Shown piece after piece: positions 43,935-59,687 of a stretch of DNA of 64,000 nucleotides. Within the stretch, counting starts at the first letter, position 1; each line of letters starts with the position of its first letter. The DNA comes from Xanthostigma xanthostigma. Lineage: Eukaryota > Arthropoda > Insecta > Raphidioptera > Raphidiidae. The notes beneath the pieces were generated by a model that saw only the letters and a list, made by a program, of their open reading frames with translations, was not told the DNA's origin and ran no database searches. The stretch covers positions 15,662,509 through 15,726,508 of the forward strand of contig OY754475.1 of assembly GCA_963575645.1 (NCBI GenBank). The letters are read 5' to 3'. The position numbers and the translations under genes are program-made.

Positions 43935-43982
43935 TGTACAACGTTTTGAATTATAATGACGTCGTTATACGGTTATATGTAT

Positions 43983-44637
43983 TGTAACAGGCTTAACCAT
44001 GGATTTCCGAGTCACCTGTGTACTGTGAGCACTGTGTGCTGTCTAAGCAATCACAGGTGTACCGGGTGAAATCTGATATGTCCGCCGCACGCGCTGCTTA
44101 ATAGCTGACTACGCTAAGTGAATGGCCGCTGTGTACAGCTGAGATAGTCATACATCGGGCTATTTAAATAGCGTAGCACGCGGCGCGCGGGAACAGTGGA
44201 TAATGATGAACAGTGGATAATGATGAACAGTGGATAATGATGAACAGTGGATAATGATGAACAGTGGATAATGATGAACAGTGGATAATGATGGATAGTG
44301 GATAATGATGGGTAGTGGATAGTAGATAGTGAATACAGTCAGATAGTGAGTTAGTTTTTGACGGTGTGTGTGTGTCCTCGATCTTCACCCTGTGATCGGC
44401 GCAGTCATGTTCGGTAAGTCCATTTTGTAAATGTTTCTAGTTTTTGTATATATTAGGGTCTTCAACCCGGTCCCATTTGGGGACTTATCTTTGTAGTGTA
44501 AATAATATTATACTATTTAAGATTATGAGTGTTTCTTTCTCAGTCCACCCATCATCCCTGAACGCCATCCCGTCGAACTCAAACTAACCCAAGCCTTCCG
44601 CTCGGGTTAGAATTAAATAACTGGGGTAACAGTTACA
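43983..44637 (+). repeat. 5' LTR of the Gypsy element
   Basis: 655 bp, TGTAACAGG...AACAGTTACA. It contains a TATA-like CTATTTAAATAG (44160-44171), six tandem 17-bp units (AACAGTGGATAATGATG) from 44192, and ATGTTCG/GTAAGT at 44407-44419, a start codon directly before a perfect splice-donor sequence. Confidence 0.92.
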
Positions 44638-44638
44638 A

Positions 44639-44656
44639 TGGTGGCAGCGGGGTGGG
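44639..44656 (+). other. Primer-binding site, tRNA-Leu type
   Basis: One base after the LTR, TGGTGGCAGCGG is complementary to the CCA-ending 3' terminus typical of tRNA-Leu (CCGCTGCCACCA). The match continues imperfectly into GGTGGG. Confidence 0.65.
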
Positions 44657-44778
44657 ATGGTTTTTGGGGATAAGGGGCCTCGTCGGGAAATGCTCATTTT
44701 CTTTTGATTGGGATTTTTTTTTTATATATTTAGTTCATTTCTTTCTTTTTAAAAAATTTTTATTTGTTATAATCAAAA

Positions 44779-45815
44779 TGCCTGACCCAGCTGTAAATGC
44801 GCCGGTGATCAACGTAACGACGCGTACTTCACTAGGCGTTATTGCGAATAGTATCGAACCGTTCGATGGAAAGGGAAATGCACATAGTTATTTTGAACGC
44901 GTTGAACGACGAGTAGCGCTAGACAACGTATCAGAGGAAGAATTGTTACAAATAATCAAAACTAGGCTTCAGGGTGACGCGTACGACTATTTTAAAAGCG
45001 ATCCATCTTTAGATAATTTAACCTATCAAAATTTTAAAACTAAATTTATAGAGAGATTCGAAAAACAATTTATACCGGGGGTCGCGCAATTGCAATTATT
45101 CCAAACCATACAAAAAAGGGAGGAAACAGTGTGCCAGTTTATAACCAGACTGAAATTAGTGGGCCAGAGGGTATTAAAAGAAAACTTACGTAACGCTTCA
45201 CCAACCAATGCACCGGGAATCGAAAAATTCTGCGAAGACGCACTTTTAAACCAGTTCAAAGTAGGCTTGAATAGGGATATCTTGAAGGGAATAGGGACCA
45301 TGTTAATGAGGGAAGACAATTTAACCATAGACAAGGCACAACAATTAGCGCAATTAGAGGAGGCGAATCAAAATGTTCTAAAGCGTGGACAAGGGATATT
45401 GGGGTTAATAGAAAATTCGGGAAATTTTGAGGGATCAAGCACCAACATAAATGTAACGGGAACAAATAAACGGGTTGTGTCTTCCAAAACCTACGTGACA
45501 ACGGGTTTAGAATGCTTTAACTGTAAGCAGAGGGGTCATCGGGCTGTAGAGTGCAGGAGTAGAATTATTTGCCATTTTTGTGGGAAATTTGGACATATAA
45601 CACGCGACTGTCGGACGCGGGTTAACGACAATAGGGGCGAATACAGGCAAAAACCACAAACACGGTTCAATAATAACGGGCAACGGGTTAATTCGGGACG
45701 AAATTTGGAATTCAATGCAGCCATGAGGGGACGGAGTCAAGTATACACACACCCACCAACACGGGGTAGATCGACACAGGGGCCACGGGGGACTACAAAT
45801 CATTTAAACGCATAA
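44779..45815 (+). CDS. gag: Gypsy Gag polyprotein
   Basis: Structural protein of the retrotransposon particle. The likely start is ATG 44779 (MPDPAVNAP), about 140 nt after the LTR; the frame is open further upstream, but that text is poly-T-rich leader. A retrotransposon-gag domain covers the middle (FDGKGNAHSYFERVE ... ERFEKQF). Two CCHC zinc knuckles follow (CFNCKQRGHRAVEC and CHFCGKFGHITRDC), then a basic Arg/Asn/Gly-rich tail. It ends in TAA six nucleotides after a slippery heptamer, with pol in the -1 frame. The frame is intact. Confidence 0.93.
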
Positions 45816-48800
45816 AACCTCGTAACCAAACACCTTTCACTATTAATCAAGCGTGCCGAAGAAGGGATATTTCAAGTATAATTAGGGCTAAATTTCAGGG
45901 AAAAATCGTATCTTTATTAGTAGACACTGGGGCAGTTTTATCGGTTATCAAGGCAGACGCCATTGCTGCGTCAACAATTCAAAAGACCAATATCAGTTTG
46001 CATGGTATAACAGGGACCGATTTAGATATACTGGGTGTCACAAAAATCGCAGTCGAAATTGGAACTCGTGTTTATGTACATGAGTTTTTTGTCAGTAGGG
46101 ATGCTACAATGGTAACAGACGGGCTATTAGGGGGCGACTTTTTGAACAAATATGGGGCTATTATTGATTATAATACAAATACAGTAACTTTACAGGGGAA
46201 TGAAATATCTATGGAACCGGGAGTAAATAGAACTCAAAATCATTGTTATTCGGGATTAGTGGAGAAAAGTTTAATAAATAAAATTTATCGGAATCAAATG
46301 ACGCAAACTGATACGACACGTGAAATTGGGGTACAATGCACGATTGATGGTGAACAGGTGAATGGACAGGGCGGGGTAGTTAGAAATCGGTTAATTGAGA
46401 AATCTGTTAATAATAAAGCGAGCAAGAGTAATTTTAATAAAAGTGATGAAATAATAAGGGTTTTATCAAGCCGGGAGTTTCCCAATCAGGGATGGGAAAA
46501 CTTAGTACGTGATGTAGCACAAAGAATGAGGCGGGAATTAAAATTAGATGAGATACGCGAACATAATTTATCAAGGGAAGCTGAGTTATCAGGGGTAAAT
46601 CGTAAGGAAAAATGTACTTCTAGCATTAGGGAAAAATGCAACAGGGATGAAACGGTTGGGATAGCCGTAAATAGGGACGGTAGCGTGATAGAAAGTGAAG
46701 CTATCGATAATAAAGTAATAAGAGGTAACCAAGTTGAGGCACCAGGGATGGGTGTACTAAAGGTAACTTGTGGTAGAAAAAATAAACTAAAAGGGAAAAA
46801 TAAGGTAAAGTGGGGAAATATAAGTATAACGGAAGATGTTTTAGTGCATAGGGAATGCACGCCAAATGATTATGCTATAGGGGATGAAGGCACTAGGGGT
46901 GCGCTAGAGCCATTAGCGCCCCCCAAACGAGGTCACGAGGATGGCTCCCACGTGATCCGTTTGTGTGATGATGTAGAAATACCCGGGAGAAGCGAAGTCA
47001 TTTGTGGGGTAACTCAGGGATTGATCAACCCAGGGGAAACAATGTTACTTGAACCACTAGAAGTTTTAGAATATGGGATAATGAGTGCAAGAGTTGTAGC
47101 GAGAGCAAATAAATATGGGGAAATACAAATATGTCTTGTAAATGTTAGTGCTAAAGATATCACTTTAAGGAAGGGAACACCTATAGGGATGGGTGAAAAG
47201 TTGGATAGTACAGTCCAAAGTGAAATTAAAAGTTATGATGAAACGGCGCAATGTGCAATGGTTCGTTCACAACGTTATAATAAGAGGCAAAGTTTAATAT
47301 GGGATTTTGAGGAAATTTTCAATTTGGAACACTTAGTTCACGAAAATAAAACGCGCTTAATATCGTTACTAACCGAGTACCGCGATATTTTTCTACTAGG
47401 GGATACGAAACTGGGTAAGGCTCGTGGAATAAAACACCGTATCATAACCGAAAATATACCACCTATTGCGAAACCGCCGTATAGAGTGCCGTATGCACAA
47501 AGGGATGTGTTAGACGAGAATATAAAGCAAATGTTAGACGAAGGGGTAATTAAACATTCACAGTCACCTTGGTCAGCGCCAGTCGTCATGGTGCCTAAAA
47601 AAGCTGAGAATGGGGAGGTAAAAACTAGAATTTGTATAGATTACCGGGGTTTAAACCAAATTACGAAGCGAGATTTTTATCCACTACCAAATATGACGGA
47701 GACAATTGATCAGTTAGGGCAAGCTAATCTGTTTACAACTTTAGATTTAGCCTCGGGTTATTGGCAAATAGAAGTCGCGGAGGAAGATAAGGAAAAGACG
47801 GCGTTTAGTACGCCCACGGCTCATTACCAATTTGAACGCATGCCGTTCGGACTGGTAAATGCGCCGGCCACTTTTCAAAGATTCATGAACACAGCTTTAA
47901 TGGGGTTAACAGGTAACAAATGTCTAGTGTATTTAGACGACATAATTGTCTATAATTCTAACGGGGTTGTTGAACATCTAAATAGATTACGGGAAGTATT
48001 TCAGCGCATTAGGGAAGCTAACTTAAAATTGAAACCTAGTAAATGCAGTTTTTTGGTAGATCAAACAAAATATTTGGGTCATATAATTTCTAAAGATGGG
48101 GTCAGACCTGATCCCGACAAAATTTTAGCTGTACAAAATTATCCTATACCAAAAACGGTAAAAGATATTCGGGCATTTTTGGGGCTTGTAGGATTCTATA
48201 GGAGGTTTATTGATCAATTTGCGCAAAAAGCCAAACCGTTAACGCAACTGACTAAAAAGAACATCACTTTTACTTGGACACAGGAAGCGCAACTAGCTTT
48301 TGACGATTTGCGAACCGCTTTATGCACCAAACCAGTCCTACAATATCCAGATTTTACACAGCCCTTTATTCTATCTACCGATGCTTCAGGCACGGCTATA
48401 GGGGCAATATTAAGTCAAAACTATAATGGACATGAACGACCAATAGCGTACGCAAGTCGTCAATTAAATAAAGCCGAGCAAAATTATTCCACCACCGAAA
48501 GAGAATGTTTGGCCGTAATTTGGGGAGTAAAGCACTATAGATGTTATTTATATGGACGGACGTTCAAACTTGTCACTGATCACCGACCGTTAAAGTGGTT
48601 ATTGACTCGGACAGAACCGACGTCCAGGTTAGCGCGCTGGGTATTAACATTAGCTGAATACGATTATGAAGTAGTTCATCGGTCGGGGAGTAAACATGGC
48701 AACGCCGATGCCTTGTCGAGACTGACAATCAACCAGGTTACTGACAATGACGCCACTGACAGGTATGAACCATTTTTAAATAGAGACCTCATTAAGAGAG

Positions 48801-49659
48801 AACAGGCAAACGATAGCAGTTTATTGAATATTTTTGAGAACATACAAAATAATTCTGAGTACGGAAAGTATTTTATAGATAATGACGGAATTTTATATAG
48901 ATCGCGAACAGGGAATGAGCGCCACGATAGGTTAGTTGTACCAAAAACAATGACTACCAAACTCATACATGACTATCATGACCTACCGTACTTTGCACAT
49001 CAGGGATGGGAGAGAACCGCTGACATGATTAAGTTAAAATTTTTCTGGGTTAACATGAATACTGATATTAAAAACTACTGTGAGAATTGTATTTCATGTC
49101 AACAACGAAAAACTTCTCCACACAAAAGACCGGCTCCCTTGCAAACCTTTCCGACACCACACGGACCATTTGACCGAATTGCAATGGATATTGTGGGTAA
49201 ATTAGTGACTACTGACTCAGGTAATAAATATATATTGACTATTCAGGACCATATGACAAAATATTTAGAAGCTATTCCGTTAAAAGACCAAACCGCGGAG
49301 ACTGTAGCTAAAGCGTTCGTGACACATTTTGTAACACGACATGGGGTACCCAAACAATTAATAACTGATCAGGGGAGAAATTTTTTGTCATCACTTATGG
49401 GGAATATTTGTAAATTACTAGGGGTTGAACAGATTCACACGACACCTTACTACCCGCAGGGGAACGGGGTAATTGAAAGGACGCATCGCGTACTAAAGGA
49501 TATGTTAGCACATTTTGTTGACGAGCGACAGACAGACTGGGACGAGTGGTTGCCGTACGTATGTATGGCCTACCGGAACTGTGTTCACAGTTCGACAAAC
49601 GAAAGTCCATTTTTTCTGGTTCATGGGAGAGACATGAATTTACCATATGACGACATTAA
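45770..49659 (+). CDS. pol: Gypsy Pol: protease, RT, RNase H, integrase (interrupted)
   Basis: Enzymes for replicating and integrating the element. It is expressed by -1 frameshift from gag. In order: aspartic protease with LVDTGA at about 45915; a long variable spacer of some 350 residues; reverse transcriptase with FTTLDLASGYWQIEV (about 47733) and VYLDDIIVY (about 47930); RNase H starting STDASGTAIGAIL (about 48375); and integrase with an HHCC zinc region (to 49100), the DDE residues in MDIVG (about 49190), TDQG (about 49365) and VIERTHR (about 49470). The frame is clean up to the LINE insertion near 49658, after the integrase catalytic core. The remainder of pol resumes at 52098. This copy cannot make full-length Pol. 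Confidence 0.92.
45803..45809 (+). promoter_or_regulatory. -1 ribosomal frameshift site TTTAAAC
   Basis: T-TTA-AAC in the gag frame is a canonical X-XXY-YYZ slippery heptamer. It lies in the gag/pol overlap (pol frame open from 45770, gag stop at 45813-45815). Slipping back by one nucleotide enters the protease frame. I did not identify a definite downstream pseudoknot. Confidence 0.75.
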
Positions 49660-49664
49660 ACAGT

Positions 49665-51719
49665 AGTACACATCCTCGAACACTAACACACAAAAAAACC
49701 ATACTTAAACCATGGATTACCAATGCGCTACTTGTCTCTATAAGGAAAAGAGACAAATTACATAAAAAAATTCTTAACAATAGACACAATAACGAACTAC
49801 ACATTTATTATAAAAACTACAAAAATCTATGCAACACGTTAATAAAAAGAGCTAAGGAAGATTATTACACAACACAAATAACACAAAACAAAACAAACCT
49901 ACAAAAAACATGGAAAATAATAAAAAACATAACCCACACAGGCACATTTAAGTCACAACACAGCATACAAACACTGAAAACAGACACACACACTATTGAT
50001 GCTGAAACTGATCCAAAAGCAGCCGCTATAAGTTTCAATAAACATTTTACGGAAGTTGGAAGCACTCTGGCCAATGAAATTATAACTAAAACAGCACTGA
50101 ACGAAGAACAACTTGCCAACCTTGTCCATCAACTCCCATCCGTCCCACAATCCATATATTTAGCGCCTATAACTGACGTTGAAGTACTAGACCTAATTAG
50201 CGGACTGAAATCTAATACAGCCCCTGGACCAGACAAAATAACCGTAACTATACTGAAGACAATAAAAAAGCAAATATCTATGCCATTGACCCACATTTTC
50301 AATTTAAGTTTTGTCGAAGGAAAATTTCCAAACCACTTCAAAAAAGCAGTTATATGTCCCATTTACAAATCCGGAGACAAGACCATACTTTCTAACTACA
50401 GACCAATTTCCTTATTAAACACACTATCTAAGTTACTTGAAAAAGCTGTTAAAAACAGACTAATGACTTATCTCGACAAATACAATTTACTATCTGACAG
50501 ACAATACGGATTTCGACAAAACCGATCGACTAGTGACGCGCTTGCTAAACTGACAGAAATAATTACATCTGACATAGACAAAGACAAAAAAAGTTTAGCT
50601 ATATTTCTGGACTTAGCAAAAGCATTTGATACAGTTTCCCACAAAATCCTCCTCCAAAAACTTACCAATATTGGCATCCGAGGAATACCTTACAAATGGT
50701 TTGAAAGCTACCTGACAAACAGGACACAGACTGTCAGAATTGATACAGTTCAGAGCTCAGAACGCTCCATCAGTTTTGGTGTTCCACAGGGAACAGTACT
50801 TGGACCGATACTTTTCTTACTATACGTCAATGACCTGTGCAACATGGAAACTGATGGACTGATATTATCATACGCCGATGACACTGTGCTGTATTTCTCT
50901 GGCCAGACTTGGGACGAGACAATAGCGGGAGCGGAGAAGCAAATGACAAAAATATATAGATGGCTTAACAATAACCTACTGACTTTAAACGCAACGAAGA
51001 CAAAATACATAACTTTCAGTGCCAACATAACAGGACAACCGACGGACCCACAACTACGACTCCATAAATGTGACAACCCCCTTGCCTGTAATTGTACACC
51101 ACTGACAAGTGTTAACAATATCAAATATCTTGGCGTTACAATAGACTACAGACTGAAGTGGGATGTACACATACAGATTCTGACAAATAGACTACGAAAG
51201 CTCATCTATATATTCTCGACATTGAGACGTTACATGACTGAAACCAACTTAAAGACAGTATACTTCGCTCTTTGCCAGTCACTATTGACCTACGGTATAA
51301 TCGCGTGGGGAGGTACTTTCAAAACCATTGTAGCCCCTGTCCAAACCATTCAAAACATTCTCATCCGAATTATCCTTAAAAAACCATATATGTACCCATC
51401 CTCAAAACTGTATCATGACTTTCAGGTGTTAAATATATATCAACTTTACCTTAAAACTATTCTTATTCATTATCATCACAGATCCTCTCTACGTATTCCT
51501 ATTCAACATTCCTACGAAACCAGATCCAAACTGCACCAAGCTATCCAAATCCCCAAGAAGGCAAAAACGTTCGGCCAAAATCACTTTACCTATCTGGCTC
51601 CTAAAATGTATAACCGCTTGCCTCTGGAAGTTAAACTTTCAAGCATCAATACCTTCAAAAAACAAGTTACGCATTGGCTAATCCAAAATCAATCGAATAC
51701 ACATCACAACACCACATAA
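49665..51719 (+). CDS. LINE ORF2 fragment, reverse transcriptase
   Basis: Non-LTR retrotransposon polymerase of the Jockey/CR1-type group. The apparent ATG at 49647 belongs to the host Gypsy sequence. LINE coding starts after it, in the linker between endonuclease and RT (KPWITNALLVSIRKRDKLHK). RT motifs: NYRPISLLNTLSKLLEKAV, QYGFRQNRSTSDAL, FLDLAKAFDTVSH, FGVPQGTVLGPILF and LSYADDTVLYF. A C-terminal LTYGIIAWGG region follows. The endonuclease domain and ORF1 are missing by 5' truncation, so it is dead on arrival. The frame itself has no internal stops, so the insertion is young. Confidence 0.88.
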   Translation, partial: STHPRTLTHKKTILKPWITNALLVSIRKRDKLHKKILNNRHNNELHIYYKNYKNLCNTLIKRAKEDYYTTQITQNKTNLQKTWKIIKNITHTGTFKSQHSIQTLKTDTHTIDAETDPKAAAISFNKHFTEVGSTLANEIITKTALNEEQLANLVHQLPSVPQSIYLAPITDVEVLDLISGLKSNTAPGPDKITVTILKTIKKQISMPLTHIFNLSFVEGKFPNHFKKAVICPIYKSGDKTILSNYRPISLLNTLSKLLEKAVKNRLMTYLDKYNLLSDRQYGFRQNRSTSDALAKLTEIITSDIDKDKKSLAIFLDLAKAFDTVSHKILLQKLTNIGIRGIPYKWFESYLTNRTQTVRIDTVQSSERSISFGVPQGTVLGPILFLLYVNDLCNMETDGLILSYADDTVLYFSGQTWDETIAGAEKQMTKIYRWLNNNLLTLNATKTKYITFSANITGQPTDPQLRLHKCDNPLACNCTPLTSVNNIKYLGVTIDYRLKWDVHIQILTNRLRKLIYIFSTLRRYMTETNLKTVYFALCQSLLTYGIIAWGGTFKTIVAPVQTIQNILIRIILKKPYMYPSSKLYHDFQVLNIYQLYLKTILIHYHHRSSLRIPIQHSYETRSKLHQAIQIPKKAKTFGQNHFTYLAPKMYNRLPLEVKLSSINTFKKQVTHWLIQNQSNTHHNTT

Positions 51720-51745
51720 TCGAGCAACTTGCACTCTATATCTAT

Positions 51746-51870
51746 GCGTTGCACACACACACACACACACACATACACCCCCACACACACACCAACACGC
51801 ACACGCACATACCCACACACACATTCATACACACACTCTCTTTCACACATACACAGTATACAATATACAC
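51746..51870 (+). repeat. (CA)n microsatellite in the LINE 3' UTR
   Basis: A run of ACACAC with interruptions such as CACGCACAT and TACACACAC, lying between the ORF2 stop and the 3' tail. Confidence 0.85.
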
Positions 51871-52097
51871 ATAAATAAGTATCCCCAACTGCAAAGTAGT
51901 AACAGGGTAAAAAAAGAAAAAAAAAATTCTGGTCTGCACAGCTACCTACAATATGAGTCCTGCCCTAGCACTGGCATCGCCAAGTTGGGCAGGAAACACT
52001 TAACCTTAAAGCTACTGTGAACAATTTGTATTTGTATTAATTGTATTTAATTAAATTAAATAAATAAATAAATAAAAAAAAAAAAAAATAAATAAAA

Positions 52098-53236
52098 TTA
52101 TACAACCACAAGGTAGACGTTATGACTACGCGGAAAATTACGCGGCGGAAATGATGGAACGTTTACACCAAGCGTTCACTAGGGCTGAACAAAATTTAGA
52201 GCGAACTAGGGAAATACGGAACAAAACTTTTAATGCGAAATCAAAACCTGTTAACTTTAATTTAGGTGACCGAGTATGGTATTATGATAGCGCGGCAAAA
52301 CTGGGGATAACAAAGAAGTTAACCAGACCTTGGACTGGTCCATACAGAATTATAGGGGTTAAAGGACCAGTGACTTTTAAAATTTCGAAAATTAATGGGA
52401 GAAAAACTGTAGTAGTTCACGCGAATAAATTGAAACATTATAAGGGACCACAGGACGAACATCCAAACGACGAACCTCAAGGGGAAAATGAGAGTGAATT
52501 TAGAATTGAGGAAGTAGAAGGGGATTTATTTACAGCACCACCCGAGTACGCACTAGCGCATTGCGTAGCTCAAGACCTTCGGATGGGGAAGGGTATCGCG
52601 TTACAATTCAAGGAAAGATTTCATGGGGTAAAAGAGTTAAAGGCTCAGAACGCCAAAGTGGGTACAATCGCGCATCTTGTACATGAGGGTAGGTATTTGT
52701 ACTACTTGGTAACTAAACGATTTAGTGCCAACAAACCCACCCTTAACGCGTTGCGAAAAAGCTTGGAATTTCTTCGCGAACATATGCATCTAAACGCACT
52801 TCAAAAGCTAGCCATGCCGGGTATCGGTACAGGGTTGGATCAGCTTAAGTGGGTAGATGTGAAAGATGTAATTATTGATGTATTTAAAGACAGTAACATA
52901 AACATTAGAATTTATTATTGTGAGTCTGATGAAAGGGAAAATGACTTGAAGGAGAGACGTGATGAAAATGAAGATACATGGTTCACTATACAAATAGCGC
53001 CAGAGGGTCTGCCTGAACCAGAGACCCCACGTGACGAAAACGAACAACCCATAGAAGACCTCACCGCGGAGGACGAGCGTGAGATATCGGACGAATCCGA
53101 TGATGATGGCGATGTCACCGTAAGGGTACAAGAAGGACTGCCGGCTGAAGAGCCGCAGGGCGAGCGCGTCCGCTATCGCACTAGAGCACGAGCACGGGTA
53201 TCTGACCACCCGTGGGTGTTAGACAAGCCGATATAA
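52098..53236 (+). CDS. Gypsy Pol C-terminus: integrase GPY/F module fused to a TARG1-like macrodomain
   Basis: Continuation of pol after the LINE. Residues are counted from ATG 52151. The integrase C-terminal GPY/F module is at about 59-80 (RPWTGPYRIIGVKGP). After a 20-residue linker a macrodomain spans about 122-258: VEGDLFTAP, ALAHCVAQDLRMGKGIALQF, RYLYYLVTK, MPGIGTGLDQLKW. The layout matches TARG1/OARD1, an enzyme that removes ADP-ribose from acidic residues, far better than viral or MacroD-type domains. K189 and D230 occupy the places of its catalytic Lys and Asp. An acidic stretch (about 300-322) and an Arg-rich tail (RVRYRTRARARV) end the protein. There are no introns. Inferred role: reversing host ADP-ribosylation; not shown by sequence alone. 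Confidence 0.88.
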
Positions 53237-55172
53237 TAGCTTAATAAATCCTAGAGTGCCATTTACGCTTTTCCTATGTTATTTTTAATATTTATTAACA
53301 TAAATTAACTTTCAGAACTTTTATTGTCGGTGACGACCATTATTGTAGCAGCTGGAAGTAACGCAAGGTACTACTGGGAAATATCTAGTCAGAGCAAGGT
53401 ATCCGTGGCTATGTGCACCAGGTGAGAGCTGCCGATATGCAATATGCACAGGTAGTATAAACAACGCTCCGGAGGTACGTATGTAAACAACGGTAAGACA
53501 TGGGATGACGTAATAGTCCAGACTGATGTTAAAATTTACAATAAAGATTAAATTATCATACAATCAAATTTGAGTCAAACGGGATTTTGATTAAGGGGGC
53601 GGTATATCTATGTACACCGGGTTGGTGTAGACGTTGATAAAGGAAAACAATTCGGGATAAGAGAGTTGTATTGACCTAAGTTTTTATATTTTTTTTAAGG
53701 GGAGCGCTCATTTCAATAAAAGTAACTGAGTATAATTCTATTATGTTGTAATATTGTAGAAAAAGAAAACGAATGTTTAAAAATTTATATTCTAAAATAA
53801 GTATCTGCTAGAGGAAAAAAAAAAGAGAAAGGAAAACATAACACGTGTAAAATATTGTTTTGTTATGTGCACTATTTTGTCATTTACTAATAAGGGACTC
53901 ATATTATAGGAGACAGCAGAGACTGGCGGACGAACGTTCCTGTGAGGCACTGCCAAAGCGACCACGGTCACAGCAACCCCAGAAGATACAATCCCCACAA
54001 CATGCTCACGATTCAGAGGGTTCATCTCGCCACTATCGCTATCAGGCCGACGAGTTTGACCAACATATCATGCAACGCAAGGTCCCGGGTATGTCAACGC
54101 ACGGAACCCTGACCTACGCTATGATGTTGTGTTATATAATGCTCCCATTATCAGAATATGGAGACAGCAACGTGATCCATGCACAACTACGCACTTATCG
54201 CAAGACTGCAGATTGTGCATTGTTTCAACACTAATCGTTATAAACAAAATAAATACTAGAGGCGGAACGAAAGACATTATACGTCTCCGTATTAAGGCTT
54301 CGAGCTTTGGAAGTGGACAAGGACTGTCAATGGTCAAGTTTACTAAAACTATATATAGCAGTGATGTATATATAAATATGTGAGTGCGGGGAGAAGGGCT
54401 GTGATCGGACGTTCAGTGTTCTCGTAGGGCGGTCGTTATCGTCACGTCGCTCAGTAGGGACTTTAAGTGAAATAGGGATTAGAGACAAGTGAAAGCGGAA
54501 TTTTCGAATTTCACAGTATCAAAAAAAAAAAAAGATTTTTTTTGTAATAGGAATTTTCTGTTGAATTATAAGAATTTTAAATATCGTTTGTTTATTGAAA
54601 ATTGAAATTAGTAAATTCCGTTTTTTAAAAAAAAAAAAAAAAAATTCATTGAGTTATCTTTTTGGATATTAATAATTATTTAAGTTTATTTATGGCTAAT
54701 TTCGAGAAATGCGTTGAATTTTATAAAGAATTTTATATAAAGGGACAGTCAACATTATTAACATTGTTTTGTGAAGTATGATTTTTTTTTGTGAATTTGT
54801 TAATTTATGATTTTGATGGATTTGTTAGTGAATTTGAAAGGATAAGAAAATTATCAAGTAGAATTTGACGAAATCAGTAAAGAATATTTATGTGGAATTT
54901 TGGTTTACATAATGTAAATAAATATTTAATAATGAAACAGAATTATCCGTTAGATTATGAACCATAACTATCTTAAGAATAAAAATTTAAAACTCTACCA
55001 GAATTAGTTGGTATGTTATTAATTTTATTAGAAAAATTTTGGGGTTTTGTAAACCTTGCATCGATTGCGTCACCAGTATGGAGGGAGAGGTACACACACA
55101 CTACGACGATTTGAATTTTTTAAACAAACAAACTCGGACAAACCGAGTTGGTTTGTTCTAAGGGGAGAGCAA
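53237..55172 (+). other. Gypsy region between pol and the 3' LTR
   Basis: 1.9 kb where an env gene would sit in env-bearing Gypsy elements. No env-like protein is recognisable (no signal peptide, furin site or membrane anchor frame). An open frame at about 53890-54234 (RRQQRLADERS..., basic and Gln-rich) is unidentified. TATATAAATA at 54370 followed by TTCAGTGTT about 40 nt later looks like a promoter. The rest is AT-rich. Confidence 0.5.
55123..55172 (+). promoter_or_regulatory. Hairpin plus polypurine tract before the 3' LTR
   Basis: AACAAACAAACTCGG and CCGAGTTGGTTTGTT form a 15-bp stem with one mismatch and a five-base loop (55123-55157). It is followed by AAGGGGAGAGCAA, the purine-rich primer for plus-strand DNA synthesis, which abuts the LTR. 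Confidence 0.7.
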
Positions 55173-56530
55173 TGTAACAGGCTTAACCATGGATTTCCGA
55201 GTCACCTGTGTACTGTGAGCACTGTGTGCTGTCTAAGCAATCACAGGTGTACCGGGTGAAATCTGATATGTCCGCCGCACGCGCTGCTTAATAGCTGACT
55301 ACGCTAAGTGAATGGCCGCTGTGTACAGCTGAGATAGTCATACATCGGGCCAGTGGCGGATTTACAGATTTGCCGCCTGTAGGCTATTTAATTTTCGCCG
55401 CCTCTGAATTTTGATATCTTAGTCCACAATCGTATCAATTACTTACATTTTCTATCAATGAAATTCCGACTTTATGATTTGTGTTCCAACTTTTCCTGTA
55501 TGGTTAGTATCATTGAGAACTAAGGTACCGTGTCAAATCCTTGATTATTTTAGTCAGAATTTTTTACCCATAAAGAAATAATTTTCTGAAATTGAATTTG
55601 ACAATTTGCTGCAGCAATCATGATTAGACTATCGATATTATATCAAGATTAAATTGTGTAAGCAGATCTCATAATAATTAGGTACATGGAGAAAAAATTA
55701 TAGAAATTATCAGTGAAGAAAATATGTAAAAATAACTAAATTTCGATTATAATATCAAATCGCTATTGCGATATTCTAAAAATTCATGATCATTAAAGGA
55801 TACTTTATAAAGCGTTTAGCAATTGTTCATGTAGAGATGTTGAAATATTTAGTATTTAGCACTGTATATAAGGACTATATTTCGATTTTTGTTAAATATT
55901 TTGATTTCTCTTCAATTTTCGAAATTCGTATTTTGTGTGGATAATAATTTTTTGTTTAATTTTGTAAATCGAAATAAAAAACTTATAAACTAAATCTGCC
56001 GCCCCTTAAAATTTGCCGCCCTAGGCTTCAGCCTACTCAGCCTGCTGGTAAATCCGCCACTGCATCGGGCTATTTAAATAGCGTAGCACGCGGCGCGCGG
56101 GAACAGTGGATAATGATGAACAGTGGATAATGATGAACAGTGGATAATGATGAACAGTGGATAATGATGAACAGTGGATAATGATGGATAGTGGATAATG
56201 ATGGGTAGTGGATAGTAGATAGTGAATACAGTCAGATAGTGAGTTAGTTTTTGACGGTGTGTGTGTGTCCTCGATCTTCACCCTGTGATCGGCGCAGTCA
56301 TGTTCGGTAAGTCCATTTTGTAAATGTTTCTAGTTTTTGTATATATTAGGGTCTTCAACCCGGTCCCATTTGGGGACTTATCTTTGTAGTGTAAATAATA
56401 TTATACTATTTAAGATTATGAGTGTTTCTTTCTCAGTCCACCCATCATCCCTGAACGCCATCCCGTCGAACTCAAACTAACCCAAGCCTTCCGCTCGGGT
56501 TAGAATTAAATAACTGGGGTAACAGTTACA
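55173..56530 (+). repeat. 3' LTR of the Gypsy element, with hAT insertion
   Basis: Same sequence as the 5' LTR once the 712-bp hAT MITE and its 8-bp duplication are ignored, except that it has five rather than six 17-bp tandem units. It is followed by GTAT, the target duplication. Confidence 0.92.
55351..56062. mobile_element. hAT MITE in the 3' LTR (CAGTGGCGGATTTAC)
   Basis: The terminal repeats CAGTGGCGGATTTAC...GTAAATCCGCCACTG are flanked by a perfect 8-bp duplication CATCGGGC (55343-55350 and 56063-56070). It is non-coding. Comparison with the empty site in the 5' LTR (44150-44160) proves the boundaries. Confidence 0.95.
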
Positions 56531-56715
56531 GTATCAAGTCCGTCGTACTGCTGTACATACGCACGGATATTGTACCGGACCGGACCAAGTCCGATGTGCA
56601 TCTCATCGAACCGGGCGGACACGCAGACTACTGTACAGACGAACAGATTTGGTACGGAGCGGACCAGATCCGCTGTCCGCTTCGAACCAAGTTCGACCGT
56701 CTGTTAGTACTATAA

Positions 56716-57427: not shown

Positions 57428-58225
57428 CTAGCGGCCCTGTACGTGCTTCGCTACGTATAAAGTGAAATAATAAAACAATTTAATTGGAACATCTATCTAT
57501 CTATCTATCTATCTATCTATTTTATTAATTGCTAGCTATTTTAAAATATACGTGGGCGTATATGTGTGTATGTCGAGCACTCCGGCTGCGCCGTCGTGCT
57601 CGAAAAAAATAGCGTAAAGTATTCGTGGATAACTGGTCTTTAAAACACTTGCTCTATTTCGAGGGTTCACTCCGGCTGCGCCGTCGTGCTCGATGAAACG
57701 TTGCGCCATCTATTGAATATTCACTCAATCCAGTCAACAGGTATCGCCGTCTGTTAAAATACTTTGGAGCTAAGCTCTATTTCGAGGGTTCACTCCGGCT
57801 GCGCCGTCGTGCTCGATGAAACGTTGCGCCATCTATTGAATATTCACTCAATCCAGTCAACAGGTATCGCCATCTGTTAGAATCCTTTGGAGCTAAGCTC
57901 TATTTCGAGGGTTCACTCCGGCTGCGCCGTCGTGCTCGATGAAACGTTGCGCCATCTATTGAATATTCACTCAATCCAGTCAACAGGTATCGCCATCTGT
58001 TAGAATCCTTTGGAGCTGGAGCTAACAGATAATTATGACTGTCAAGGAATAGACAAATAATTTGCAATAAAATAATATTGCGACTATAAATTGAAATGTA
58101 AGCTATCCTATCTTTCAAGTTGGGTCGAATTGCACACGGTGTGCAAATCAAATTTAAAATCGGTTCAGTAGTTTAGGAGTTCATCGCGGACAAACAACGT
58201 GACACGTAATTTTTATATATAAAGA
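57428..58225 (-). mobile_element. Helitron-like element with internal minisatellite
   Basis: On the minus strand: 5' TCTTTATATATAAAAATTAC after A, and 3' GAAGCACGTACAGGGCCGCT then AG before T. The 3' end matches the plus-strand Helitron ending at 22311. It includes an (ATCT)n run at 57490-57520 and three 123-bp tandem units. Confidence 0.65.
57651..58018 (-). repeat. Minisatellite, 123 bp, three units
   Basis: Units start at 57651, 57774 and 57897. Each holds CTATTTCGAGGGTTCACTCC, GGCTGCGCCGTCGTGCTCG and a spacer GATGAAACGTTGCGCCATCT that is absent from the 92-bp version at 21.8 kb. Confidence 0.85.
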
Positions 58226-58226
58226 T

Positions 58227-59452
58227 TTATTGGGTCAAGGCGTGCTTGATCCGTTTATGTCTGTAATTGTAGGGAAGTTCTTCTTTAACACAATTTCCGA
58301 TTTCGCTTATCACTGAGTGATTGCTGGTAGCACATTTTTTGAAAAAATTGTCCGTTAGGTCATATATGTATTTATTTAATGGCACTAAGTCGACTAAACT
58401 GTGAAGAACGGGGACTGGCGTATATCTTGGGTATTGTGTTATGATTCTGAGTGATTTATTCTGAGTTATTTGTAGTGAAGCGTAATTTGACTTGCATGTT
58501 GAACTCCATACAGGAGCGGCGTAGGTAAGAATAGGTCGGATACACACTTTATATATTAGTAGTTTATTATGCTTGTTTAAGTTTACTTTATTGTTGAATA
58601 TTGGAAATAGTTGTCCGAGCGCTGCATATGCTTTACTTGTGATATGTTTGATGTGTTGGCTGAAATTTAGTTCGTTGTCTAGTATTAAACCTAGGTATTT
58701 GATATGAGGTGACCATGGGATAACATTTCCTTGAACGGTGACATTTTTGTTTATGTAAGGCCTGCGCTTAGTAAACATGATTGCTTCAGTCTTTGCAGCA
58801 TTAAGTTTTATTTTCCATTTTGAGGAATATTTTTCTATTTTATTAATAGCTTTCTGCAACCGGTTCGTAATAGTATCTATGCGCCATGAACTTGTAAATA
58901 GGGGTGTATCGTCAGCGAATAACGATAGGGAGACATCATCCGTGCGAGGTAGGTCATTGATATATAAGTTAAATAGAACAGGCCCGAGTATTGAGCCCTG
59001 TGGTACTCCCGCAGTTATATTAAAAACATTGGATTCAATGTCGTTTACAGAAACTTTGAACTGACGGTAAGTTAAGTAGGACTTTATGAATTTAACTATG
59101 TAAGTCGGAAATTTATATTTTATAAGTTTATAAATTAAGCCGGTGTGCCAGACACAATCAAATGCTTTCTCTACATCTAAACATACCATTCCGGTATGTT
59201 TCCTAAGATTAAAGTTGTGCATGATATTGTCACTAACACGCGCCAGCTGCTTAACGGTAGAATGTTGTTTTTTAAAACCAAACTGTTCTCTTATGAGGAT
59301 GTTCTCAGTATGTAGATGTTTGTTTACTCTATTTAAAACAACGCGTTCGATAGTTTTACTTAAGGTACTCAGCAGGCTTATGGGCCGATAGCTGCTAAGT
59401 AAGCTAATATCTTTACCAGTTGTTGGAAGATTTCTACCGAAGATTATCTGGG
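58227..59452 (-). pseudogene. Jockey-clade LINE reverse-transcriptase fragment
   Basis: The frame is open upstream of its first ATG (59222) to about 59450 and includes YRPISLLSTLSKTIERVV and REQFGFKKQHSTVKQL. Then CLDVEKAFDCVWH, AGVPQGSILGPVLFNLYIND and LSLFADDTPLF (the RT active-site motif), and a C-terminal PILTYAAPVW region. The domain order and wording are typical of Jockey elements. The endonuclease half is missing at the 5' side and the 3' UTR is cut by the Helitron. It lies downstream of gene B. Confidence 0.85.
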
Positions 59453-59687
59453 AAATACAATAAAAAAGTCATTATAAATTTTAAAAAAAGTTATTTTTGT
59501 ATATTATTCATATTTCTCATGAGAGTACGCCTTTAATTGTATAAATCATGCGAATATAAAATGCTTTCTCATCAATGAGAAATAATTTGAATTTATCCTA
59601 AGTTGCAATCAACACAAAAAACTTTATTTAACATCTCCCGAATGAGCTTGTGTATAAGTTGACTACTTGACTGACTGAAACACTAAT
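59453..59687 (-). other. 3' UTR region of ZAD-ZNF gene B
   Basis: Homologous to 29.94-30.1 kb downstream of gene A. AATAAA on the minus strand at 59623-59628 is the likely old poly(A) signal. A trace of one more zinc finger (59640-59700) is present. Confidence 0.5.

Follow-up and report, generated by a model that had tools for sequence, protein, structure and literature searches.

Why would a retroelement keep, inside its pol polyprotein, a macrodomain of the kind that takes ADP-ribose off its targets? The question is raised by a stretch of 64,000 nucleotides from the insect Xanthostigma xanthostigma (Raphidioptera; contig OY754475.1 of assembly GCA_963575645.1, forward strand, positions 15,662,509 to 15,726,508), hereafter the window, which holds a Ty3/Gypsy element with a TARG1/OARD1-type macrodomain behind its integrase. 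The open frame at window positions 52076-53236 (+) encodes, in turn, the integrase C-terminal domain, an acidic linker, the macrodomain and an acidic tail. The answer that we lean towards, and rate slightly better than even, is that we are dealing with a functional (ADP-ribosyl)hydrolase of TARG1 type, whose tether to pol and integrase lets it work in cis, on the complex that carries out reverse transcription and integration. Other loci and proteins bear our own numbers (L and P).

Identity of the macrodomain

When the window domain was compared with the sequences of proteins of known structure, human OARD1/C6orf130 came first (E 5.6e-39 over 144 residues); the window domain and human TARG1 are about 46-48% identical. 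With a match so far beyond chance, positions 52514-52924 are confirmed as a complete TARG1/OARD1-type macrodomain, fused to a Gypsy integrase in the frame and at the coordinates given by an earlier note made from the letters alone. That note had also picked a catalytic pair, K189 and D230 counted from the ATG at 52151. These are residues 68 and 109 of the domain, and they align with the Lys in the OARD1 stretch YYLITK and the Asp in its GCGLD. The Asp has a catalytic role in TARG1. K84 of TARG1 is catalytic and required for activity, according to the accessible text of PMC8501950.

A profile search was expected to find a macrodomain, and its outcome depended on the profile. One built from six element domains matched TARG1 at E 1.7e-54, the next family being DarG (5m31) at 6.3e-14, whereas the general Pfam Macro model (PF01661) gave the window domain E 7e-4 and 20.0 bits, under its 22-bit cut-off. 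The same model scored 27.5-34.4 bits on pieces of the sister families L010, L012 and L013 and on protein P0009. Taken alone, it is too weak for the window domain and would have missed it. DarG models matched more weakly than TARG1 (NCBIfam 1.9e-14, below cut-off; PADLOC 1.3e-17), and against the NCBIfam DarG equivalog cut-off of 250 bits the window domain reached 53.7 and the L013 domain 60.5.

The overlay on TARG1 that had been proposed as a check agreed closely with these results. The AlphaFold model of the window domain (183 residues, built from 7 sequences, mean pLDDT 80.6, with 30 of 183 residues below 50 and disordered ends) superposed on TARG1 4j5r with a TM score of 0.97 of the target and 0.74 of the model, at an rmsd of 0.9 A. 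The leading structural matches were TARG1 with ADP-HPD or ADP-ribose bound, followed by DarG at TM 0.80; Foldseek also returned alphavirus macrodomains, well below TARG1 and DarG, and yeast Poa1p, likewise below both. DarG, an antitoxin macrodomain that reverses DNA ADP-ribosylation, is thus the next best structural and profile match, but the window domain is only about 25% identical to it and scores far under the family cut-off. With TARG1/OARD1 it shares the whole 137-residue domain and the active-site Lys and Asp; the difference is its setting, without introns in a Gypsy pol polyprotein.

Copies, slots and origin

Searching the whole assembly with the window domain gave 99 scored candidates and 90 matches at E <=0.001, counts that are lower bounds; two of the matches are probable host exons, and some others are paired pieces of one copy. 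The family of the window element has at least seven further places at 94-99% identity, plus a second fragment of one of them. In six of the seven (L070-L075) the integrase core, C-terminal domain and macrodomain follow one another in the window's order and spacing, with an uninterrupted integrase core and a C-terminal stretch whose first 105 amino acids are 100% identical; three of the six lie in open frames of 1,674 amino acids. The earlier note had held that copies lacking the domain would tell against it. All seven places carry the domain or part of it, although the search could find only domain-bearing places, and other families carry it too. An assembly artefact or a chance open reading frame (ORF) is ruled out by the six further places with the same integrase-macrodomain order at 98-99%. 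Two of the 1,674-residue frames, L070 and L071 (C11:9025803 and C11:9034679), lie 8.9 kb apart in the same orientation and are perhaps a tandem pair with a common long terminal repeat (LTR).

The domain could be placed within pol at 28 of the 30 loci read, window included (L076 and L078 were not placeable). It follows the integrase at 21 of the 30, the commonest slot, and lies between protease and reverse transcriptase (RT) at seven, about 45 amino acids past the protease match in six of these and about 235 in L077. Fourteen further places were read: L099-L102, L103, the probable host gene L104 and eight degraded, cut or rearranged copies. In L099-L102, a distant Gypsy lineage whose integrase shares 38-39% identity with that of the window element, the macrodomain follows the integrase. 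In L103 it stands between RNase H and integrase (RT 48% and macrodomain about 31-33% identical to the window's), as it does in P0009, a 1,610-residue pol on a metagenomic contig. There are thus three pol slots for the macrodomain in this genome. One copy of the L079 family, which has a macrodomain beside the protease, continues after its integrase into an acidic tail ending RTRARGRVSDHPWVLDRRI, resembling the window's RTRARARVSDHPWVLDKPI, and no macrodomain match was found after the integrase there. Because the slots differ and this one is empty, gain, loss or relocation of the domain has occurred among related pols. The single fusion first described is therefore real, but it is one arrangement of several, and its window copy is broken, which had gone unmentioned. 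In L011 (C3:47043100-47046400) an internally deleted pol leaves one 703-residue frame with protease, integrase C-terminal domain and macrodomain, and may be a non-autonomous form retaining protease and macrodomain; frames of 703 amino acids occur at eight listed places including L011, the one read, and one of 701 at another.

Chromoviruses carry a chromodomain after the integrase, so that the window element resembles them in having a Gypsy pol with an extra domain C-terminal to the integrase, but differs in that this domain is an enzyme-type macrodomain, found in other slots in other families. The likeness of the commonest slot, together with the ADP-ribose binding that is a macrodomain property, would suit a reader and not an eraser, a domain that guides the integrating element towards broken DNA or chromatin bearing ADP-ribose, as is thought for the chromodomain. 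We regard this as improbable: slots near the protease suit steering poorly, and both catalytic residues are kept in 14 of the 15 element domains compared, beyond what binding should require. These 15 include the near-copy pairs L079/L084 and L082/L085. The Lys and Asp persist down to L103, the exception being L112, which is truncated before the Lys.

The macrodomain is mostly under purifying selection. Within families, the ratio of nonsynonymous to synonymous divergence (dN/dS) is mostly 0-0.35, with few changes per pair, and the L010 and L011 domains do not differ at all. Between families dN is 0.29-0.54 with synonymous sites saturated or nearly so; L099 against L102 gives dN 0.15 with saturated dS.

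A probable host OARD1 was found at L104, where two exons of an OARD1-like gene are separated by a GT-AG intron of about 0.96 kb. Its N-terminal part is long, charged and repeat-rich, as in the grasshopper protein P0001, whose database name is that of a TFIID subunit; in the macrodomain it shares 62% identity with P0001 and 58% with a fly OARD1 (P0002). The element domains are 32-58% identical to the L104 macrodomain and lack its intron, as had been said of the window domain. The proposal that a host gene was captured holds in this respect, but the trees show neither this host as the source nor the number of captures. Trees of 15, 13 and 23 rows (the later ones leave out P0007 and P0008; the cut L112 was kept in the 23-row tree and the cut L111 dropped) required 3, 2 and 3 changes of element label, respectively. 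In the approximately unbiased test, a single clade of all element domains was not rejected (p-AU 0.082 with 13 rows, 0.171 with 23), nor was a clade of the four after-integrase domains (p-AU 0.212, 13-row set). The five element domains of this genome group together in the 13-row tree with weak support (68/77).

Precedents and possible function

A scan of IMG/VR with the window domain alone found no relatives; with an alignment it found 51 loci (L016-L066) with TARG1/DarG-like macrodomains at 27-56% identity over the best segment, which may be phage countermeasures to DarT; the window RT-RNase H and integrase had no match at E 0.01 in any of the 51. Contigs of GTDB genomes gave 48 pattern matches, none a relative, and protein database searches returned 8 proteins, 2 proteins and the query only. 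In the literature no report of a macrodomain in a Gypsy pol was found among the titles and abstract openings listed (at most 20 papers per broad search), an absence that is unproved, as preprints and most subscription papers were outside coverage. PMC12992720 contained none of the six terms looked for in it, and the few hits in PMC8672886 had no bearing on the matter.

Macro and CNPase proteins represent two activities of tRNA-type RNA chemistry. The closest precedent found is that of some fish endogenous retroviruses, epsilon-like, whose extra ORFs encode CNPase or macro domain proteins, as stated in the accessible text of a review (PMC4977317); the likeness is a macro domain on an LTR retroelement, and the difference is an additional ORF there and a pol fusion in Ty3/Gypsy here. 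These viruses speak for a small-molecule role comparable to that of yeast Poa1p: the substrate would be O-acetyl-ADP-ribose or ADP-ribose 1''-phosphate, arising for example in tRNA chemistry. The structure search did return Poa1p, and human OARD1 is also named O-acetyl-ADP-ribose deacetylase 1. However, Poa1p ranks below TARG1 and DarG, and a tether to pol would be unnecessary, which leaves this role a very slim chance. Bdelloid rotifer LTR elements offer another parallel, as cell-type enzymes have been acquired and shared among them (captured ORF3: GDSL, DEDDy; PMC5408684, accessible text). Their ORF3 differs in being a separate ORF with other enzymes, and that paper contains neither the word macro nor the word ADP-ribose.

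Reverse transcription and integration produce single-stranded DNA, ends and gaps. According to the accessible parts of two papers, unligated Okazaki fragments and 3' overhangs are sites at which poly(ADP-ribose) polymerase 1 (PARP1) puts ADP-ribose on single-stranded DNA and TARG1 takes it off again (PMC11102865), and TARG1 reverses thymidine-linked ADP-ribose on DNA (PMC8501950). Because these enzymes act on single-stranded DNA, and the steps of the element make single-stranded DNA, ends and gaps, the tethered domain may clear ADP-ribose from element DNA or its proteins. Gypsy-like, often envelope-bearing elements would then keep a predicted hydrolase tethered to the polymerase/integrase polyprotein. 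The single-stranded complementary DNA (cDNA), DNA ends and strand gaps arising from reverse transcription and integration would trigger host PARPs, which would place ADP-ribose on element DNA and on Glu and Asp residues of nearby pol and gag proteins. The domain would take off the last ADP-ribose unit by means of its Lys nucleophile and Asp, and synthesis, gap repair or integration could then finish. Activity, substrate and benefit to the element are what we infer.

Several observations weigh against this cis-acting role. No observation made here ties host PARPs to retroelements. Broken or cut copies exist (L005 and L105-L111, outside the 15 domains compared), and three copy pairs show no purifying selection, namely L083-L084 (dN/dS 0.589) and L100-L101 (0.634), each with few changes, and L073-L075, with two nonsynonymous and zero synonymous changes. 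Compared with sister families, the window macrodomain is 51-57% identical, the integrase 55-60% and RT-RNase H 66-72%; compared with L082, the integrase is 78% identical and the macrodomain 50%. Since divergence is faster in the macrodomain than elsewhere in pol, either constraint on it is weaker than on the core enzymes and it is fast-evolving, or it has been replaced. Ser replaces a Gly of the MGxGIA loop in L089, L099 and L102, and the L103 domain is very divergent. Finally, P0006, a metagenomic Gypsy protein found via its integrase part, is a piece that stops behind the integrase C-terminal domain and contains no macrodomain, so relatives without one exist.

Some of these facts are what would be expected of a functionless passenger, captured and carried along: a domain evolving faster than RT, pairs free of purifying selection, cut domains (L109 and L112) and several degraded copies. 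Yet dN/dS is well below 1 in most within-family pairs, dN is low against saturated dS between families, the catalytic residues stand in 14 of 15 domains, and 36 of the 90 listed matches lie in frames of at least 1,400 amino acids. The dN/dS values and the retained catalytic residues disfavour a passenger or pseudogene, and we consider it scarcely credible, the least likely of the readings.

The main rival to a tethered hydrolase acting in cis is counter-defence in trans, in which the domain, freed by the protease, works in the cytoplasm and strips host or element proteins of ADP-ribose set by antiviral PARPs, a role also proposed for alphavirus and coronavirus macrodomains. Several families have an envelope gene and are therefore virus-like. 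Envelopes of the Monjiviricetes_fusion type (Pfam) were found in L009 and in L068, behind the L013 pol (E 8.5e-81 and 1.2e-203), the L008 envelope is of this type by its 66% identity to L009, and a Baculo_F envelope (1.8e-13) in L113 belongs to the L079 copy. Differing pol slots also fit a domain whose position matters little, and alphavirus macrodomains are among the Foldseek matches. These stand well below the nearest kin, TARG1 and DarG, however. In the window copy no envelope ORF was detected after pol (best match at chance level, E 0.64); in its family, the fragment L076 has an envelope match of 33% downstream. Release by the protease is an assumption. We hold the trans role to be unlikely, though less so than the reader or small-molecule roles.

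RNA-virus macrodomains pointed to PARPs as antiviral factors. That the same tag-eraser domain stands at different pol places in related families suggests that ADP-ribose gets in the elements' way, and a TARG1-type domain in retroelement pol, mostly under purifying selection and in several slots, suggests that reverse-transcribing elements, too, are restricted by ADP-ribosylation, perhaps at the DNA stage. A broader proposal, which we find possible but would place short of even, is that Gypsy-like retroviruses repeatedly took up, moved or replaced a host-type TARG1 in pol, in three slots, because ADP-ribosylation of element DNA or of replication proteins hinders reverse transcription or integration. 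The domain would then serve retroelements as an inbuilt defence against PARPs, a counterpart of the RNA-virus macrodomains but of a different subfamily and for the DNA stage. The role of nucleic-acid ADP-ribosylation in animals becomes testable in this way: is ADP-ribose present on element cDNA, and is it taken off by the domain?

The window element and neighbouring features

The features of the element are collected in Table 1. Two LTRs, a short target duplication, a polypurine-tract-like stretch and a gag with zinc knuckles are all present, and the Pfam order of pol, protease-RT-RNase H-integrase, is that of Ty3/Gypsy elements. The gag frame holds a capsid and two CCHC zinc knuckles (Pfam zf-CCHC 7.1e-9, 2 stretches); the first part of pol matches RVP (5.7e-8), RVT_1 (4.2e-37), RT_RNaseH (2.6e-42), Integrase_H2C2 (2.6e-19) and rve (1.5e-12). 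By blastn the LTRs align with zero mismatches, which points to a recent insertion and hence a young element; the 5' LTR has one extra 17-bp repeat unit, and the 712-bp insertion in the 3' LTR came later.

Table 1. Features of the Ty3/Gypsy element, in window positions
Feature	Position	Strand	Basis
Target-site duplication GTAT (4 bp), left copy	43979..43982		Read from sequence; identical 4 bases after 3' LTR
Ty3/Gypsy element, whole	43983-56530		LTRs, target duplication, gag, pol order
5' LTR, 655 bp, TGTAAC...GTTACA	43983..44637	+	blastn against 3' LTR
gag open frame, stop to stop; start overlaps LTR	44562..45815	+	Pfam Retrotrans_gag 2.4e-5
pol, first part: protease, RT, RNase H, integrase zinc-binding and core	45770..49662	+	Pfam
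Non-LTR retrotransposon inside pol	49663..52093 (boundaries approximate)	+	RVT_1 6.3e-41; pol frame broken there
Integrase C-terminal domain and acidic linker	52100..52513	+	Integrase_p58_C E 1.9e-10
TARG1/OARD1-type macrodomain, 137 aa	52514..52924	+	Sequence, profile and structure comparison
Predicted nucleophile Lys codon, K68 of domain (K84 of TARG1)	52715..52717	+	OARD1 alignment
Predicted catalytic Asp codon, D109 of domain	52838..52840	+	OARD1 alignment
Acidic C-terminal tail, ends RTRARARVSDHPWVLDKPI	52925..53236	+	Translated open frame
Polypurine-tract-like stretch ahead of 3' LTR (presumed role)	55160..55172	+	Read from sequence
3' LTR, split by insertion	55173..56530	+	Alignment to 5' LTR
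Insertion in 3' LTR, 712 bp, presumably hAT-like	55351-56062		8-bp duplication CATCGGGC; inverted ends of type CAGTGGCGGATTTAC
Target-site duplication GTAT, right copy	56531..56534		Read from sequence

The non-LTR insertion interrupts pol upstream of the macrodomain, and the frame resumes with the integrase C-terminal domain. The inserted element has an RT frame at 49638-51719 and an A/T-rich tail at its end; no clear target duplication was found around it. The hAT label of the insertion in the 3' LTR is our assumption from duplication length and inverted ends.

Beyond the element, a tandem repeat with a 123-bp period lies at 57651-58000 (nearly three copies, 98-100%; the region searched ended at 58000), and a second non-LTR reverse transcriptase frame of 413 amino acids at 58227-59468 on the minus strand (RVT_1 1.4e-40). 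Among the related elements, L006/L067 (C4:29502751-29503461, minus) has 98% DNA identity to L008 up to about the start of the envelope gene. At the envelope position stands a 237-residue ORF with Sina-type RING and zinc finger matches (E 5e-6 and 1.4e-6, just under the Pfam cut-offs), and the envelope appears to have been replaced by a seven-in-absentia-like E3 ligase.
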